Of a DNA stretch of 64,000 bases, positions 18,197 to 57,431 are shown one piece after another; positions within the stretch are counted from its first letter, which is position 1; each line of letters opens with the position of its first letter. Under the pieces are notes generated by a model. That model had not been told where the DNA came from and made no database searches. It saw only the letters and a list, made by a program, of their open reading frames with translations. The position numbers and the translations under genes are program-made. Source of the DNA: Lentisphaerota bacterium (GTDB lineage: Bacteria > Verrucomicrobiota > Lentisphaeria > Victivallales > Victivallaceae); the NCBI GenBank assembly GCA_015061625.1, contig SUWG01000013.1, positions 1-64,000 on the forward strand, written 5' to 3'.

Positions 18197-20410
18197 ATGG
18201 ATTGGAAAAAATTGATCCCTTTCGGCCGCCGCAACCGGGGCGGCAAATCATTGATCGACCGTGAATATATCGAGGAAAGTCTGGAAGCCTCACCGGTGCC
18301 GGTCGTCATGGTCATCATCCTGCTCTGGGCGGTCTCCTCGGTTCTGCTGCTGCTGTCGGAGAACCGCCAGCGGGATCTGACCGTCTGGCAGGGCAATCAG
18401 CGTGCGCCATTCTCGGTGTGGGCGAGAACCAACTTTTCCTATGAAGACACCACGGCAACAGAAGCGTTGCGCGATCAGGCCAGAGCCGGAGAACCATTGT
18501 TTTTCAAGGTGGATGAAAAAATTTGCGAAGGACTCAGATCCGCTCTGCGCAACTATTTCGACAACGACTTCAACCGCAAATACGGTGTATCTCTTCAAAC
18601 CGATCATGATCAATTACTGAAAGATATCGACGTCATCCTCTATCACGGCATCTTCAGTGACAGCGATTTTGCCGGATTGCCGGAGGATAAACCGGTGCGG
18701 ATCATAACTCCGAATGAAACGTTTTATGCCGTCGCTCACGACGCCCGGAGCAGTGCCAAAAATTTGATCGATCTGCTGAATCTGCCGAATCTGCCGCCCC
18801 ATATCGCCGAATCGGCAGTCAACGATATCCAGACTCTGCTTGCCGGGGGCAATCTGATCTTTGATCAAAAAGCCACCGATGCCGCCGCCGTTGCCGCAGC
18901 CGCCAAAGTGCCGCCGGTGATAAAAGAACGCAAACGCGGCGAATTGCTGATCGAAAGACATCAGGCCATCACCAGAGAAGTGGTCGATATGTTTGAGGCG
19001 GAAAAAGCGGCTCTGCCCAGCGGCTACGGATTGGTTCTTTTGGGCAATCAGTTGATTTTGAGTTGTCTGCTGCTGATGCTGGCACTCTTTTTCCTCTACC
19101 GGGTCTATCCTAAAATTTTCAAAACTCCGCGCCGTTTTGCCACCGGCGGATTTGCGATCATTCTGGGGTTGCTTGCCAATTTCGGAGCATTTCAACTTTT
19201 CTTCTACTTTTTCCGTCACGGTATCGTCAGCAATTATGAATTGATGCTTTTCATGATCCCGATACCTTTCGGTGCGGCTCTGCTTACGGCTCTGCTGGGC
19301 AACCGGACAACGATTTTTGCCGGTTTTCTGGTCGCTTCCATTTCAGCATTGATGATCCTGCCTGACCGTTCATTTGAATTGGCTATCCGCTGGTTCGCCA
19401 TTGCGGCCCTGACAGCTCTGATCACCCGGAATTTGAATAACTACCGCAGTTTTTTCATCCGGACATTTTTCTGCGGTGCGCTGTTGACGACCATCATCAA
19501 TATCGACATTCTTTATTCCTTCTACAACCGGCCGGAAATTCTGAAATTCATTCTGATAACCGTGCTGGCCAACAGTTTTATCTGCGCCATGACTGCGTTG
19601 CTGGCGGTTTTCGCCTTTGAATTGATCTTCAATACCGATACATCCATGTCGCTGATGGTGTTGAGCGACTACAACCACCCGCTGCTGGAAAAACTCAAAC
19701 GGGAAGCACCCGGAACCATGTTCCACAGTATGACCGTTGCCACTCTGGCCGAAGATGCCGCGCGGGCGATCAAAGCCAATCCCATCCGCGCCAAAGCCGG
19801 AGCGTTATTCCACGACATCGGTAAACTTTCCATGCCGCAATACTTTGTGGAAAATAATGTGGACAGCCCCAAAGAACACATGAAAATGCCTCCCCAGCGC
19901 AGTTGCGGCATCATCCGCGGTCACGTCAAAGAGGGGTTGAATCTCGCCAGAGAATACCGCCTTTGCAGTTTCGTCCGGGAAGCGATCGTCACTCATCACG
20001 GCGACGACCTGATCTCATTTTTCTACCGCAGAGCGTTGGAAAACAGCAACGGCGACAATCTGCCGGTGATCGAAGCCCAATTCCGCTACGACGGCGAACC
20101 GCCGGTGAATAAGGAATTGACCATCATCTCGCTGGCTGATGCCTGCGAAGCGGCCAGCCGTTCGCTGAATAAGCCGACTCCGGCCAAACTTGAAACGCTG
20201 GTCAATGATATTTTCATCGGCAGATTGCGCGGCGGACAACTGCGCAATTCCGAATTGACCACCAATGAACTGGATATCGTCCGTGAATGTTTCATCGCCG
20301 ACCTGATCAGTTTCCATCACGGCCGGATCGCTTACCAAAAGGAGAATTCTGATGATCCAACTGCATTGCCGCTGGAAGAACAATCTGCTTCCGGCTCCGA
20401 AAAAAAGTGA
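18197..20410 (+). CDS. 7TM-HD membrane phosphohydrolase (PgpH-like)
   Basis: The 737-residue protein has one N-terminal membrane helix (about 35-55) and an extracytoplasmic 7TMR-HDED domain to about residue 270. Seven membrane helices follow (about 275-480), then a cytoplasmic HD domain. The HD domain shows MFHSMTVA, ALFHDIGKLSMP and THHGDD metal-site residues. Characterised relatives degrade c-di-AMP. I saw no diadenylate cyclase gene in this window, so the substrate is inferred. It overlaps ybeY by 59 bp. Confidence 0.92.
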   Translation: MDWKKLIPFGRRNRGGKSLIDREYIEESLEASPVPVVMVIILLWAVSSVLLLLSENRQRDLTVWQGNQRAPFSVWARTNFSYEDTTATEALRDQARAGEPLFFKVDEKICEGLRSALRNYFDNDFNRKYGVSLQTDHDQLLKDIDVILYHGIFSDSDFAGLPEDKPVRIITPNETFYAVAHDARSSAKNLIDLLNLPNLPPHIAESAVNDIQTLLAGGNLIFDQKATDAAAVAAAAKVPPVIKERKRGELLIERHQAITREVVDMFEAEKAALPSGYGLVLLGNQLILSCLLLMLALFFLYRVYPKIFKTPRRFATGGFAIILGLLANFGAFQLFFYFFRHGIVSNYELMLFMIPIPFGAALLTALLGNRTTIFAGFLVASISALMILPDRSFELAIRWFAIAALTALITRNLNNYRSFFIRTFFCGALLTTIINIDILYSFYNRPEILKFILITVLANSFICAMTALLAVFAFELIFNTDTSMSLMVLSDYNHPLLEKLKREAPGTMFHSMTVATLAEDAARAIKANPIRAKAGALFHDIGKLSMPQYFVENNVDSPKEHMKMPPQRSCGIIRGHVKEGLNLAREYRLCSFVREAIVTHHGDDLISFFYRRALENSNGDNLPVIEAQFRYDGEPPVNKELTIISLADACEAASRSLNKPTPAKLETLVNDIFIGRLRGGQLRNSELTTNELDIVRECFIADLISFHHGRIAYQKENSDDPTALPLEEQSASGSEKK

Positions 20411-24791: not shown

Positions 24792-24825
24792 GTTACTTTT
24801 CTTTTTCCGAAAAAAGAAAAGTAAC
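24792..24825. repeat. Stop-abutting 34-bp hairpin, copy 1
   Basis: GTTACTTTTCTTTTT and AAAAAGAAAAGTAAC form a perfect stem around CCGA. It begins at the base after the pnp stop codon. Other copies are at 55310-55343, 56735-56770 and, as a right half only, 55567-55588; all are followed on the gene strand by CAAAAGAAAAAC or CAAAAGAAAAAC with one change. Confidence 0.9.
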
Positions 24826-24902
24826 CAAAAGAAAAACGAGGTGTCGCGGCACTCCGTTGTCGTGCCTTGATCGACGCTTTTTGAAAAAAAGCTTTGCAAA
24901 AA

Positions 24903-24936
24903 CTCAGTGGAGTAACACCCACTGGGTTTTTCTTTT
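24903..24936 (+). terminator. Intrinsic terminator within island B
   Basis: CTCAGTGG (24903-24910) pairs with CCACTGGG (24919-24926) and is followed by TTTTTCTTTT. It would stop transcripts leaving pnp. The equivalent site in the 55310 island is the terminator at 55600. Confidence 0.7.
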
Positions 24937-25851
24937 GCGAGGTGTCGCACCGTTGCGTTGCAACGGTTTGATCGGACGGGCGGTTGACACCGCCCTTGAC
25001 AGGGGGCGTTGCCCCCCGTACCCCCCCCCGGTAGATTTTTGCAGTCTGCCGGGGTTTTGTTTGTTTCGGCTCAACGGTAACTAACGGTAACTAACGATAA
25101 TTAACGGATAGCCGGAAGGGGCATTTCCCGGCTGGCGTTGCTCCGTACTTATCCGTACAACTCCGTACCTATCCGTACCGGGCGCATATCGAGCGCAAGC
25201 GAGCCGCACAAGGTCGTATTTGTCACGGGAAACCGCGCAGACCGCAGTCGAATGCACTTTTACTTTGCATTGTGAGGCAAGGTCGAAGCCAAGTCAAGGC
25301 GGCAACGAGGGAGTGTACGACCGTACTCGACCGAGTTGACGACCGCTGACTTGGCAAGAGATTGCCCACAAGGTAAAGTAAAAGCCGAACAACAATAGTT
25401 GCGAGGATGAGCAAGCGGGCGAGCAATAGCCGGCATGTGCAGTGGAAAGGCCGCCCAGGCGAGCCGTAAGGCGAAGCCGCTTGACGACCGGCAAAGCCGG
25501 TCTGGCGGCCGCCCCACGGAATCGACGGCGTTACTTTAGTAGGGGAATTCACGCCCGGAGCAACTTTTTGTCACGGGAAATGCACCGCAAAAGGTAGGGA
25601 GTTTGAGGGGAGGAAAAGGCGTTAGCGTTTGCCTCCCCTCAAGCGCACAGGAGCCAATAAACGCTCCACCGGATAATCACCGGCAACACACCAAGAGCAG
25701 AGCAGGTCAGCGGCTCGCTTGCGCTCGATATCCGCTTGGTACGGATAAGTACGGATAAGTACGGATAAGTACGGAGCAACGCAAGCCGGGGAATGCCCCT
25801 GCCAGCTATCCGTTTGTTACCGTTTGTTACCGTTTGTTACCGTTGAGCCGA

Positions 25852-25890
25852 AACAAACAAAACCCCGGCAGACTGCATGATCTGCCGGGG
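25852..25890 (-). terminator. Intrinsic terminator of purT
   Basis: On the minus strand CCCCGGCAGA and TCTGCCGGGG form a 10-bp stem, followed by TTTTGTTTGTTT, 25 bp after the purT stop. Half of this terminator, TCTGCCGGGGTTTTG, is reused as a module at about 4511 and 25045. Confidence 0.85.
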
Positions 25891-25915
25891 TGTAACAAAC
25901 CCATTAAGGGAACCT

Positions 25916-54310: not shown

Positions 54311-55309
54311 ATGAGTGTCAAGTTTGAAGGTTACGAACGCCGTATCGCCAAGATCGAAAAAGCGTTGAAAGAATTCGGCCTCGATTCCCTCGAAGCCACC
54401 CGTGAATTGTGCCTTTCCAAAGGTGTCGATGTGGAAGCCATCGTCCGCGGTGTCCAGCCCATCGCCTTTGAAAACGCCGTCTGGGCTTACACCCTCGGCG
54501 CCGCCATCGCCATCAAAGAAGGTGCCAAAACCGCCGCTGAAGCCGCCGAAAAAATCGGTCTGGGCCTGCAGGCTTTCTGCATCCCCGGTTCAGTAGCCGA
54601 CAGCCGCGAAGTCGGTATCGGTCACGGTAATCTGGCCGCCATGCTCCTGCGCGAAGAAACCAAATGCTTCTGCTTCCTCGCCGGTCACGAGTCATTCGCC
54701 GCCGCCGAAGGTGCTATCGGTATCGCCAAAACCGCCAACAAAGTCCGTAAAGAACCGCTCCGCGTCATCCTTAACGGTCTGGGCAAAGATGCCGCTTATA
54801 TCATCAGCCGTATCAATGGCTTCACTTTCGTTGAAACCGAATACGACTACTATACCGGCGATCTCAAGATCGTGGAAGAAAAACCCTTCTCCAACGGTCC
54901 CAAAGCCGCCGTCAAATGCTACGGTGCCGATGACGTCAGCGAAGGCGTGGCCATCATGATCAAAGAAGGTGTCGATGTTTCCATCACCGGTAACTCCACC
55001 AACCCGACCCGCTTCCAGCACCCGGTCGCCGGTACCTATAAGAAATGGGCGATCGAACACGGCCGCAAATACTTCAGCGTCGCTTCCGGCGGCGGTACCG
55101 GCCGTACTCTGCACCCGGATAACATGGCCGCCGGCCCTGCCAGTTACGGTATGACCGACACCATGGGCCGTATGCATGGCGATGCCCAGTTCGCCGGTTC
55201 TTCCAGCGTGCCGGCTCACGTCGAAATGATGGGTCTGATCGGTATGGGCAACAACCCGATGGTCGGTGCTTCCGTCGCCGTCGCCGTCGCCGTTTCCGAA
55301 GCCCTCTAA
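54311..55309 (+). CDS. GGGtGRT-family protein (PF14057-like), function unknown
   Basis: The 332-residue protein carries the family's signature GGGTGRT (260-266), followed by LHPDNMAAGPASYGM. Other strong patches are HGNLAAMLLREETKCFCFLAGHESFAAAEGA and SITGNSTNPTRFQHPVAGTYK. It is probably cytoplasmic and has no known activity. It is translated with the NifU-like gene, with codon use typical of highly expressed genes (GGT, AAA, CGT). The stop TAA abuts the dispersed hairpin at 55310. Confidence 0.87.
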   Translation: MSVKFEGYERRIAKIEKALKEFGLDSLEATRELCLSKGVDVEAIVRGVQPIAFENAVWAYTLGAAIAIKEGAKTAAEAAEKIGLGLQAFCIPGSVADSREVGIGHGNLAAMLLREETKCFCFLAGHESFAAAEGAIGIAKTANKVRKEPLRVILNGLGKDAAYIISRINGFTFVETEYDYYTGDLKIVEEKPFSNGPKAAVKCYGADDVSEGVAIMIKEGVDVSITGNSTNPTRFQHPVAGTYKKWAIEHGRKYFSVASGGGTGRTLHPDNMAAGPASYGMTDTMGRMHGDAQFAGSSSVPAHVEMMGLIGMGNNPMVGASVAVAVAVSEAL

Positions 55310-55599
55310 GTTACTTTTCTTTTTACGGAAAAAGAAAAGTAACCAAAAGAAAAACGATATGTCGCGCCCCGGATTGCATCCGGGGCTTGATCGATTTTTT
55401 TGCGAAGCAGTATGCGGCAAGGTCGATGTCAAACAGAGGCAACGGCAAGGGAGCATACTATGTATGTGACCGAGCCGGTGTCCGATAGTTTGACAAGAGG
55501 TTGCCCATAATGCAAAGTAAAAAACGCTTTTGGGAAAAACTTGGCAAAACTTCTGCAACATTATATGTTACGGAAAAAGAAAAGTAACCAAAAGAAAAA
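55310..55599. repeat. Repeat island C, first part
   Basis: Contains the stop-abutting hairpin copy 2 (55310-55343), CAAAAGAAAAACG, and the GTCGC-stem-TTGATCG hairpin (stem arms 55366-55374 and 55378-55386). It also holds the two-stem module with arms TGTCAAAC (55427-55434) and GTTTGACA (55488-55495) around the CATAC-TAT-GTATG core (55454-55466), and a right half of the first hairpin (55567-55588). A promoter-like TTGGCA, 17 bp, TATGTT lies at 55541-55569. No gene is present. Confidence 0.85.
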
Positions 55600-56320: not shown

Positions 56321-56734
56321 AACACCCCCGGCAGACTGCGGTCTACCGCCTCGCCCCACCGGAGCAGGTCAGCAACTCGCTTACGCTCGATATTCGCCCG
56401 GTACGGATGGGTACGGAGTTGTACGGAGAAGTACGGAGCAACACAAGCAGAGGTAATACCCCTCCGGAGCAGGTCAGTAGCTCGCTTACGCTCGATATTC
56501 GCCCGGTACGGATGGGTACGGAGTTGTACGGAAAAGTACGGAGCAACACAAGCAGAGGTAATACGGATTGCCGTTAGTGTCCGTAATGTCCGTAATGTCC
56601 GTAATGTCCGTATTGTCCGTATTGTCCGTATCGGGGCGGGGGTACGGGGGCGCAGCCCCTGTAAAGGGCGGTGTCAACCGCCCGACCGATCAAGCCGTTG
56701 CGTTGCAACGGCGCGACACCCCGTTTTTCTTTTG
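56321..56734. repeat. Repeat island C, second part, between two convergent genes
   Basis: Starts with CCCCGGCAGACTGCGGTCTACCG, a variant of the terminator module. Two 105-bp tandem copies follow at 56359-56463 and 56464-56568, each with GAGCAGGTCAG, CGCTTACGCTCGATATTCGC and TACGGA 10-mers. Seven 9-mers of CCGTAATGT or CCGTATTGT lie at 56572-56632. The hairpin GGGCGGT-GTCA-ACCGCCC is at 56666-56683, and the fourth GTCGC-stem-TTGATCG hairpin, inverted, at 56694-56712. No gene is present. Confidence 0.85.
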
Positions 56735-56770
56735 CTTACTTTTCTTTTTCCGTTAAAAAAGAAAAGTAAG
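56735..56770. repeat. Stop-abutting hairpin, copy 3, inside the queC 3' end
   Basis: CTTACTTTTCTTTTT and AAAAGAAAAGTAAG arms; the outer pair is C-G where the other copies have G-C. On the minus strand it encodes the last ten residues and the stop of QueC. Confidence 0.9.
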
Positions 56771-57431
56771 GTGTGGGGTCGGGGACACCGGCGGCTTCGA
56801 AACCGGCGTGCCGGAGACGGCAACTGTCGCATTTACCGCAACTGCGTCCGGTGTCATCGGGGTCGTAACAACTGGTGGTCAGGGAGTAATCCACATTCAA
56901 AGAGATGCCGAGTTTAATGATTTCGGCTTTGGAAAGGTTTTGCAGAGGGGTATGGATGTGCCAGTGCCAGTTTTCATCGACGGCGCAAGTACCGAGGCGT
57001 GCGGTTTCAGCGAAAGAAGAGATGAATGGGGCGCGGCAGTCGGGGTAATTGGAGTAGTCGATGCTATTGACGCCGATAAAGATATCGTGTGCGCCGATAA
57101 CTTCGCCCCATGAAGCGGCGAGCGAAAGGAAAACGAGATTTCTGGCGGGAACATAGGTAACGGGGATGGATTGGGCCACGCCGGATTTGGGAACGGTGAT
57201 CGAATCGTCGGTCAGCGCGGAACCGCCCCACTGGCGCAGATCGAGATTGAATACCCGGTGTTGTTTTGCGCCCATGACGATGGAAAGTTTTTCAGAAGCG
57301 GCAAGTTCATTACGGTGGCGTTGACCGTAATCGAAACTCATGGTATAACATTCAAAACCGTCAGCGGCGGCGACGGCGAGACAGGTAGCGGAATCGAGTC
57401 CTCCGCTCAACAGGACGATAGCTTTTTTCAT
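56736..57431 (-). CDS. queC: 7-cyano-7-deazaguanine synthase
   Basis: QueC makes preQ0 from CDG, ammonia and ATP in queuosine synthesis. The 231-residue protein has the PP-loop SGGLDS (9-14), YGQRHRNE, and the zinc ligands in [21 protein letters not shown]. The family normally ends near DPTPY; here FSFLTEKEK is added by the repeat hairpin at 56735-56770. It lies 3 bp after queE with an AAAGGAG site. Confidence 0.96.

Follow-up and report, generated by a model that had tools for sequence, protein, structure and literature searches.

Rickettsia palindromic elements and the dRS3/NIME sequences of Neisseria comprise short palindromic modules assembled in mosaics, with some coding ends entering the element, and integron attC sites carry the core sites RYYYAAC ... 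GTTRRRY. In the sections of Di Nocera et al. 2013 (PMC3733652) cited here, REPs are described as lying near ORF ends, sometimes providing the stop codon and running into ORFs; RPE-4, RPE-6 and dRS3 are assigned to the CGTC REPs, a group found without a RAYT transposase. A further type of element is represented by the intrastrand triplex motifs, of which class II comprises a pyrimidine, a purine and a second purine tract, with an antiparallel third strand (Holder et al. 2015, PMC4666352). In the cited parts of the same work, the TM_ECO motif of E. coli displays (i) the G/C-rich consensus CCCTCNCCC...GGGNGAGGG...GGGNGAGGG, (ii) flanks of increased variability, (iii) neither promoter nor terminator activity, and (iv) no footprint of a triplex when probed in vivo, the triplex motif loci being more rearranged than controls, with the majority staying put, and G/C-rich motifs being weighted above A/T-rich ones.

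The window analyzed here, a stretch of 64,000 nucleotides from an uncultured Lentisphaerota bacterium of the gut (Lentisphaeria), contains four copies of a hairpin, termed H2, which the earlier note described as differing stems between the constant flanks GTCGC and TTGATCG; its coordinates and readings agree with the window sequence. The copies, each recognized by the flank pattern and by a covariance model, carry the stems GGCAC/GTGCC (24843..24873, forward strand), ACCGTTGC/GCAACGGT (24944..24974, forward), GCCCCGGAT/ATCCGGGGC (55361..55393, forward), and GCCGTTGC/GCAACGGC (56687..56717, reverse). Three of them (24843, 55361 and 56687) are preceded by a second hairpin, H1, the copy at 24944 having no H1 of its own. 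The composite displays a constant order, comprising a pyrimidine arm (e.g., GTTACTTTTCTTTT), a short loop, the complementary purine arm, a short linker, a second purine tract and GTCGC-H2-TTGATCG. The H1 hairpin at 24792..24825 (forward; arms 24792-24806 and 24811-24825) lies directly 3' of the pnp stop codon, with its third, mirror-image purine tract at 24827..24836 and a class II motif at 24796-24836, and that at 55310..55343 (forward) lies directly 3' of the stop codon of a GGGtGRT-family gene (54311-55309), with the third tract at 55345..55354 and the motif at 55314-55354, both third tracts being located by mirror count and triplex-rule script. The H1 at 56735..56770 (reverse) extends over the 3' terminus of queC, whose stop codon it provides, with the third tract, located by the script, at 56724..56733 and the motif at 56724-56766. 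Between the two H2 copies downstream of pnp, a CTCAGTGG/CCACTGGG hairpin with a T run 3' of it (24903..24931, forward) is predicted from sequence and fold to be intrinsic-terminator-like. In the whole genome (G000; 2.7 Mb in 44 contigs, 90.9% complete), the H1 core TACTTTTCTTTT...AAAAGAAAAGTA is found at 19 places, with a strong H2 match next in 17.

The composite resembles BoxC, PIT and TM_ECO in the pyrimidine-purine-purine arrangement of H1, with a mirror third strand and short loops, as well as in its dispersal as many intergenic copies whose flanks vary between relatives. It differs in that H1 is A/T-rich, with CTTTTCTTTT-type stems that on inspection do not fit the TM_ECO consensus, and in the coupling of H1 to a second, tagged hairpin; moreover, H1 starts at a stop codon or at the end of a tRNA, whereas the cited part of PMC4666352 reports no preferred distance for TM_ECO. 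H2, in turn, is REP-like as a palindrome of 19-21 bp that has conserved, unpaired feet and is present in tens of copies 3' of genes. In GTAG/CGTC REPs, however, the unpaired tag (also TGTC or CCTC) adjoins the stem directly, whereas the H2 foot reads (N)GTCGC, and the TGTC present in many copies has a GC between it and the stem; the feet GTCGC and TTGATCG on the two sides, the lack of basal AT pairs and of a CCA tail, and the linkage to H1 likewise set H2 apart. RAYT, a trait of the GTAG type, is also missing, with no Y1_Tnp match in the own genome and a scattered occurrence across the genus. Palindromic modules in mosaics and coding ends that run into the element recall the Rickettsia and Neisseria elements, but by their descriptions these have different tags and sequences. 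The core sites of integron attC are absent on inspection from the ends of H1 and H2. The suggestion in the earlier note of a REP/BIME element or a structured RNA holds as far as a dispersed, REP-like palindrome with conserved feet is concerned, but the unit is a two-part composite. As that note also supposed, no named family accounts for it: tRNA is the sole Rfam match in the window at gathering score, literature searches by sequence strings and topics returned no account of an H1-H2 element, and the text of PMC4666352, PMC3733652 and PMC12306157, as far as it was available, makes no mention of Lentisphaerae.

Judged by the rules published for such sequences, H1 belongs to the class II intrastrand triplex motifs. 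Our own script for the ITxF class II rule comprises stems and a third strand of 6-15 nt, loops of 1-6 nt and the triads A.A-T, G.G-C or T.A-T, with one mismatch allowed across the entire motif; all 26 regex-defined units of the own genome (stem of at least 8) conform, L091 being unscored. With a stem of at least 9, the window contains three class II motifs, all of them H1s, and six block-shuffled windows contain none. Where the A runs are unequal, the third tract follows the mirror order in 34 of 34 copies and the direct order in none (linker-side run), these copies being counted by context rather than as independent events and one of them having a shorter second run; outside this set, the mirror also fits the 29 copies of the 4/5 class, and the direct order fits one doubled-arm copy (runs of 5 then 4). 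Because the third tract obeys the mirror rule, the sequence points to a DNA structure, at least for the H1 half, and we infer that H1 folds as a triplex. The idea of a switch, with the 5' arm pairing to the third tract, is unsupported, since the copies with unequal A runs keep the mirror and not the direct order. Among 21 distinct H1 basal pairs (outer four bases compared, 70 units), nine are fully complementary versus 0.9 expected and a maximum of five in 2000 shuffles, the other 12 showing incomplete complementarity. Outward growth of the palindrome to the stop codon was dropped as an origin because the H1 arm length is nearly constant.

Two variations of the upstream hairpin are also seen. 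The H1 pyrimidine arm and loop are tandemly doubled directly after the stop codon at L079, L081, L089 and L090, for which slippage or strand switching might be the source. At three loci of G017 (L133, L134 and L136), the G/C-rich hairpin GCGGCAAACGTGCCGC replaces H1 upstream of H2, and because H2 there follows a different hairpin, those upstream of it seem interchangeable. H1-like motifs such as AAAGAAAGTAGGCAAAGAAAG probably occur in other phyla as well.

The flank pattern GTCGCN{8,30}TTGATCG occurs five times in the window versus 0.54 expected, a count reached by none of 100 shuffles; four occurrences are the H2 hairpins, and the fifth, at 18731-18770, has no palindrome. The own genome contains 48, many of them without a palindrome, versus none for the reversed control. 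For the analysis of covariation, 40 places in six genomes including the own were picked by the flanks AAAAGAAAARCGNNNNGTCGC...TTGATCG alone, because the stems should not drive the choice of copies. At least four perfect outer pairs are present in 36 of the 40, and of the remaining four, three miss by one mismatch within the outer two pairs and one has three pairs. The 21 distinct rows exceed all 500 shuffles in paired cells (82.6% versus 66.2%), in double-change cells (25 versus 7.3) and in covariation score (0.420 versus 0.138), whereas pairs altered on both sides (7 versus 4.1) are matched by 2 and further pair types (13 versus 9.9) by 15 of the 500; slid versions of the pairing yield 37.6-48.8% paired cells. 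A larger alignment of 85 distinct rows, which was fitted to the covariance model, is therefore biased toward it and includes a few spurious rows, gives 117 double-change cells versus 43 (reached by 0/500 shuffles) and 25 further pair types versus 23.3 (reached by 96/500). The covariance model built from the flank-picked copies finds at least 42 places in the own genome at E<1e-5, with 150 of 2054 candidates scored, the weakest of these (C10:108055) having no proper H2. The claim that both arms change together is thus borne out, and neither arms that vary independently nor a family of four copies, the outcomes named in the earlier note as counting against it, was encountered. Across species, H2 stems with the same loop TCCGTTGTC carry the differing pairs GGCAC, GCCGC, GGCTC and GCCGT, with which compensation is still compatible.

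The gene-end part of the composite is H1. The stretches of the own genome that were examined comprise 28 H1-H2 units, 26 found by regex plus queC and L091, which the regex misses because of their longer loops; the total excludes two short-armed second copies (L082 at 903, L097 at 848). H1 starts at the stop codon in 17 of the 28, that is, within 1 nt in 16 and with the stop inside the arm in L092, the first of the two doubled arms being the one that adjoins the stop codon at L079, L081, L089 and L090. It begins inside the last codons of the gene in five (queC, L091, L097, L100 and L101), directly after a tRNA CCA end in two (Leu and Thr), 3' of a partial tRNA-Thr copy in one, and elsewhere in three (L104, L105 and the third unit of L099). 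Among the fetched loci of the sister species G025, eight of 11 lie within 1 nt of the stop codon, two run into the gene and one follows a tRNA; five of nine G012 units adjoin the stop codon, and in G008 the units stand mostly in arrays, with one of 14 within 4 nt of a stop. Further tRNA cases are L132 (G017, Arg), L210 (G025, Leu), L222 (G028, Thr) and L225 (G045, Val). Comparison with element-free relatives, limited to pnp, the GGGtGRT gene, L085, L087, L092, L094 and L095, reveals that in all seven cases the gene of the relatives stops at the same codon and is followed by different sequence. The QueC proteins of relatives end at DPTxY or a few residues beyond, and the own QueC (gene 56735-57431, reverse strand) continues from DPTxY with the H1-encoded FSFLTEKEK and the TAA of the element; L097, L100 and L101 have lost about 3 to 11 codons relative to the native protein ends.

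Several observations concern the surroundings of the element. In G010 (L237), the QueC terminus at the corresponding position is likewise derived from H1 and resembles that of the own QueC. A tRNA-Thr(CGT) has its final 22 nt repeated exactly about 520 nt further on, beyond the element (L099, 583-1203), and the 3' end of another tRNA-Thr is repeated beyond the element with one mismatch (L222, 709-1055), a pattern to be expected of an insertion that duplicates its target or attachment site. The remainder of the pnp-purT gap (24980-25891) is a mosaic of other repeated modules, with related modules in opposite orientation at the gap ends, including a CCGGTAGA...TCTGCCGGGG terminator-like hairpin, TTTGTTTCGGCTC and short tandem TACGGATAAG-like units. 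A repeated module of about 200 bp (GCGAAGCAGTGCGAGGCAAGGTCGAAGTC...GCATACTATGTATG...) stands after several H2 copies (55394-55520, L079, L080, L081, L092 and L099) and leads into another H2 or a terminator-like hairpin, and short tandem repeats TCCGTATTG/TCCGTAATG occur in the same intergenic mosaics (56550-56640 and L106).

In a sample of the class, at least 82 of 197 genomes match the covariance model at E up to 0.01, with up to 31 candidates scored per genome and many of the genomes having single weak matches; multi-copy sets belong to this genus and to one further member of the family, G035. A sample of the phylum gives matches at E up to 1e-4 in 28 of 387 genomes, the E-values being rough owing to short calibration; these genomes comprise 12 of this genus, seven others of the family and nine outside it with one match each (best 5.5e-9). 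The named contigs that bear the element come from MAGs of Lentisphaerae or Lentisphaeria, including two of sheep colon origin, apart from one 'uncultured bacterium' record. Two exact H1 patterns have no match in viral contigs, and an H1 query against plasmids returned one weak partial match under a dltB gene, a weak test given that the low-complexity filter was on; a phage or plasmid origin was therefore rejected. The short H2 pattern has at least 120 matches in viral contigs, which look like chance because a stem of at least 4 bp is present in one of the 80 examined.

The comparison of G000 with G025 covers six sites at which both bear the unit downstream of a clearly orthologous gene, all from one pair of species and without control sites. 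H1 plus linker is identical at 48/48, 48/48, 48/48, 47/48, 44/48 and 37/49 positions, and the 200 nt 5' of H1, in the same order, at 185/200, 180/200, 173/200, 183/200, 159/218 and 186/202, the 159/218 value being disturbed by a doubled arm (82% by BLAST). Beside this near-constant H1, the H2 class is replaced at four sites and kept at two, as illustrated by the GGGtGRT-gene site, with GCCCCGGAT/ATCCGGGGC in G000 versus GCCGC/GCGGC in G025. The spacer is altered at five of the six, and the downstream module differs at four and looks alike at two, with three comparisons ending at a contig end after 14-39 nt; at L083/L218, H1 itself is altered as well. With regard to the TM_ECO trait of flanks more rearranged than controls, the present comparison, without control sites, shows a change of H2 class at 4/6 sites and of the downstream module at 4/6. 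H2 also differs in two pairs left out of the six, L082/L210 (tRNA-Leu, upstream 75% identical) and L081/L127 (a G012 pair). The element is absent or decayed at pnp in G025 and G012 and at L092 and L094 in G025, and L101 in G025 retains H1 with no H2. Because the H2 class is replaced as a block at 4/6 sites, the co-change of the arms would in part reflect exchange of whole stems, not compensation alone, and such block exchange is the best-supported inference of this work. The interpretation in the earlier note, that co-changing arms mark a structure kept by selection or a palindrome-copying process, is accordingly sustained as to covariation but not as to compensation as the sole source.

We propose a composite, REP-like intergenic repeat of a Lentisphaeria lineage, of which H2 is the half open to exchange and in which the triplex-motif H1 at gene 3' ends marks the point of exchange, a reading whose chances of being right or wrong we judge about equal. 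It builds on the observed architecture, the covariation of H2, the gene-end position in the own genome and G025, and the near-constant H1 beside a replaced H2; the fit of H1 to the class II rule, its mirror tract and covarying basal pairs, and the rearranged triplex motif loci of E. coli also speak for it. When single-stranded, as during replication, H1 would fold and could stall synthesis; dispersed copies might then take part in repair or template switching, with the DNA 3' of H1 being replaced en bloc. An exchange of one palindromic copy for another would import two matching arms together, which would explain why few recurrent stem classes are found per genome, and in the 3' UTR the stem of H2 may be kept paired by selection on a hairpin of RNA or DNA. 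Re-insertion at the same place would give a like pattern at the shared sites, which counts against the proposal, as do the altered H1 at L083/L218, the arrays of G008 and, in PMC4666352, the missing footprint of the G/C-rich motif, the lower weight given to A/T-rich motifs and the many loci that stay put.

Selection on the transcript provides a possible, though unlikely, alternative, in which the unit would be a 3' UTR element with H1 slowing terminating ribosomes or blocking exonucleases, H2 acting as a hairpin conserved in the RNA and a terminator-like structure coming next. The units do lie 3' of the gene in the sense direction, RNA folds of four stretches reach z-scores of -3.2 to -6.3, and the foot GTCG could pair with TGAT via two G.U pairs, a pairing that one-sided foot changes mostly preserve, although transitions alone would explain much of this. 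A hairpin with a T run follows 20 of 25 first units at a distance of up to 700 nt, and 18 at up to 300 nt, a count without shuffle control in which five matches are alternative pairings across H2, and the RepRanger authors cite REPs within 15 nt of a stop codon as ribosome stallers in the relevant passage of PMC12306157. Nevertheless, the T run stands at least 7 nt away from the H2 stem, tRNA genes bear the unit too, block replacement is not needed on a transcript-based reading, and the mirror third strand has no obvious role in RNA, purine-motif triplexes being stated as unable to form in RNA in the cited part of PMC4666352. A mobile cassette placed at gene 3' ends by a recombinase or transposase appears rather unlikely. 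The exact junctions at native stop codons and CCA ends, the occupancy of sites in some relatives and not in others, and the repeated tRNA-Thr ends at L099 and, with one mismatch, at L222 would suit it; however, no target duplication is evident at protein genes in a comparison of 61 units, the next best protein-gene scores (L130 and L092) are weak, the repeats at L104 and in G008 sit in arrays, the unit has no defined right-hand boundary, and no enzyme was identified in a search that covered Y1_Tnp.

The classical spread of a REP by a RAYT (Y1) transposase is very improbable. H2 is a small intergenic palindrome with conserved unpaired feet and tens of copies, and the element-bearing G008, G001 and G015 have a Y1_Tnp match, with a broken one in G029, but H2 carries neither a GTAG nor a CGTC tag, Y1_Tnp is absent from the own genome (90.9% complete), G012, G017 and G025, and its matches in 11 of 34 genus genomes bear no relation to copy number; a RAYT/REP origin was therefore rejected. 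Chance or an assembly artifact can hardly be credited at all: the assemblies are MAGs with many copies near contig ends, yet the window holds five flank matches versus 0.54 expected, and the same sites are occupied in independently named MAGs. A bolder version of the proposal, which we regard as improbable, would have an undescribed system place a triplex-forming cassette at gene 3' ends (stop codons and tRNA CCA) as a docking point for the exchange of 3' UTR modules, H2 included.

The element is a lineage-specific variant in which two known kinds of sequence, intrastrand triplex motifs and REP-like palindromes, are combined, and its placement at the ends of genes is unusually exact. Arms that change together in a repeat family need not signify compensatory mutation, since replacement of whole palindromes leads to the same covariation signal. 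In E. coli, intrastrand triplex motifs are tied to unstable DNA but a mechanism is lacking; H1 has a fixed address at the end of the gene and a constant core next to a neighbor that is swapped, which makes the link to instability testable site by site.
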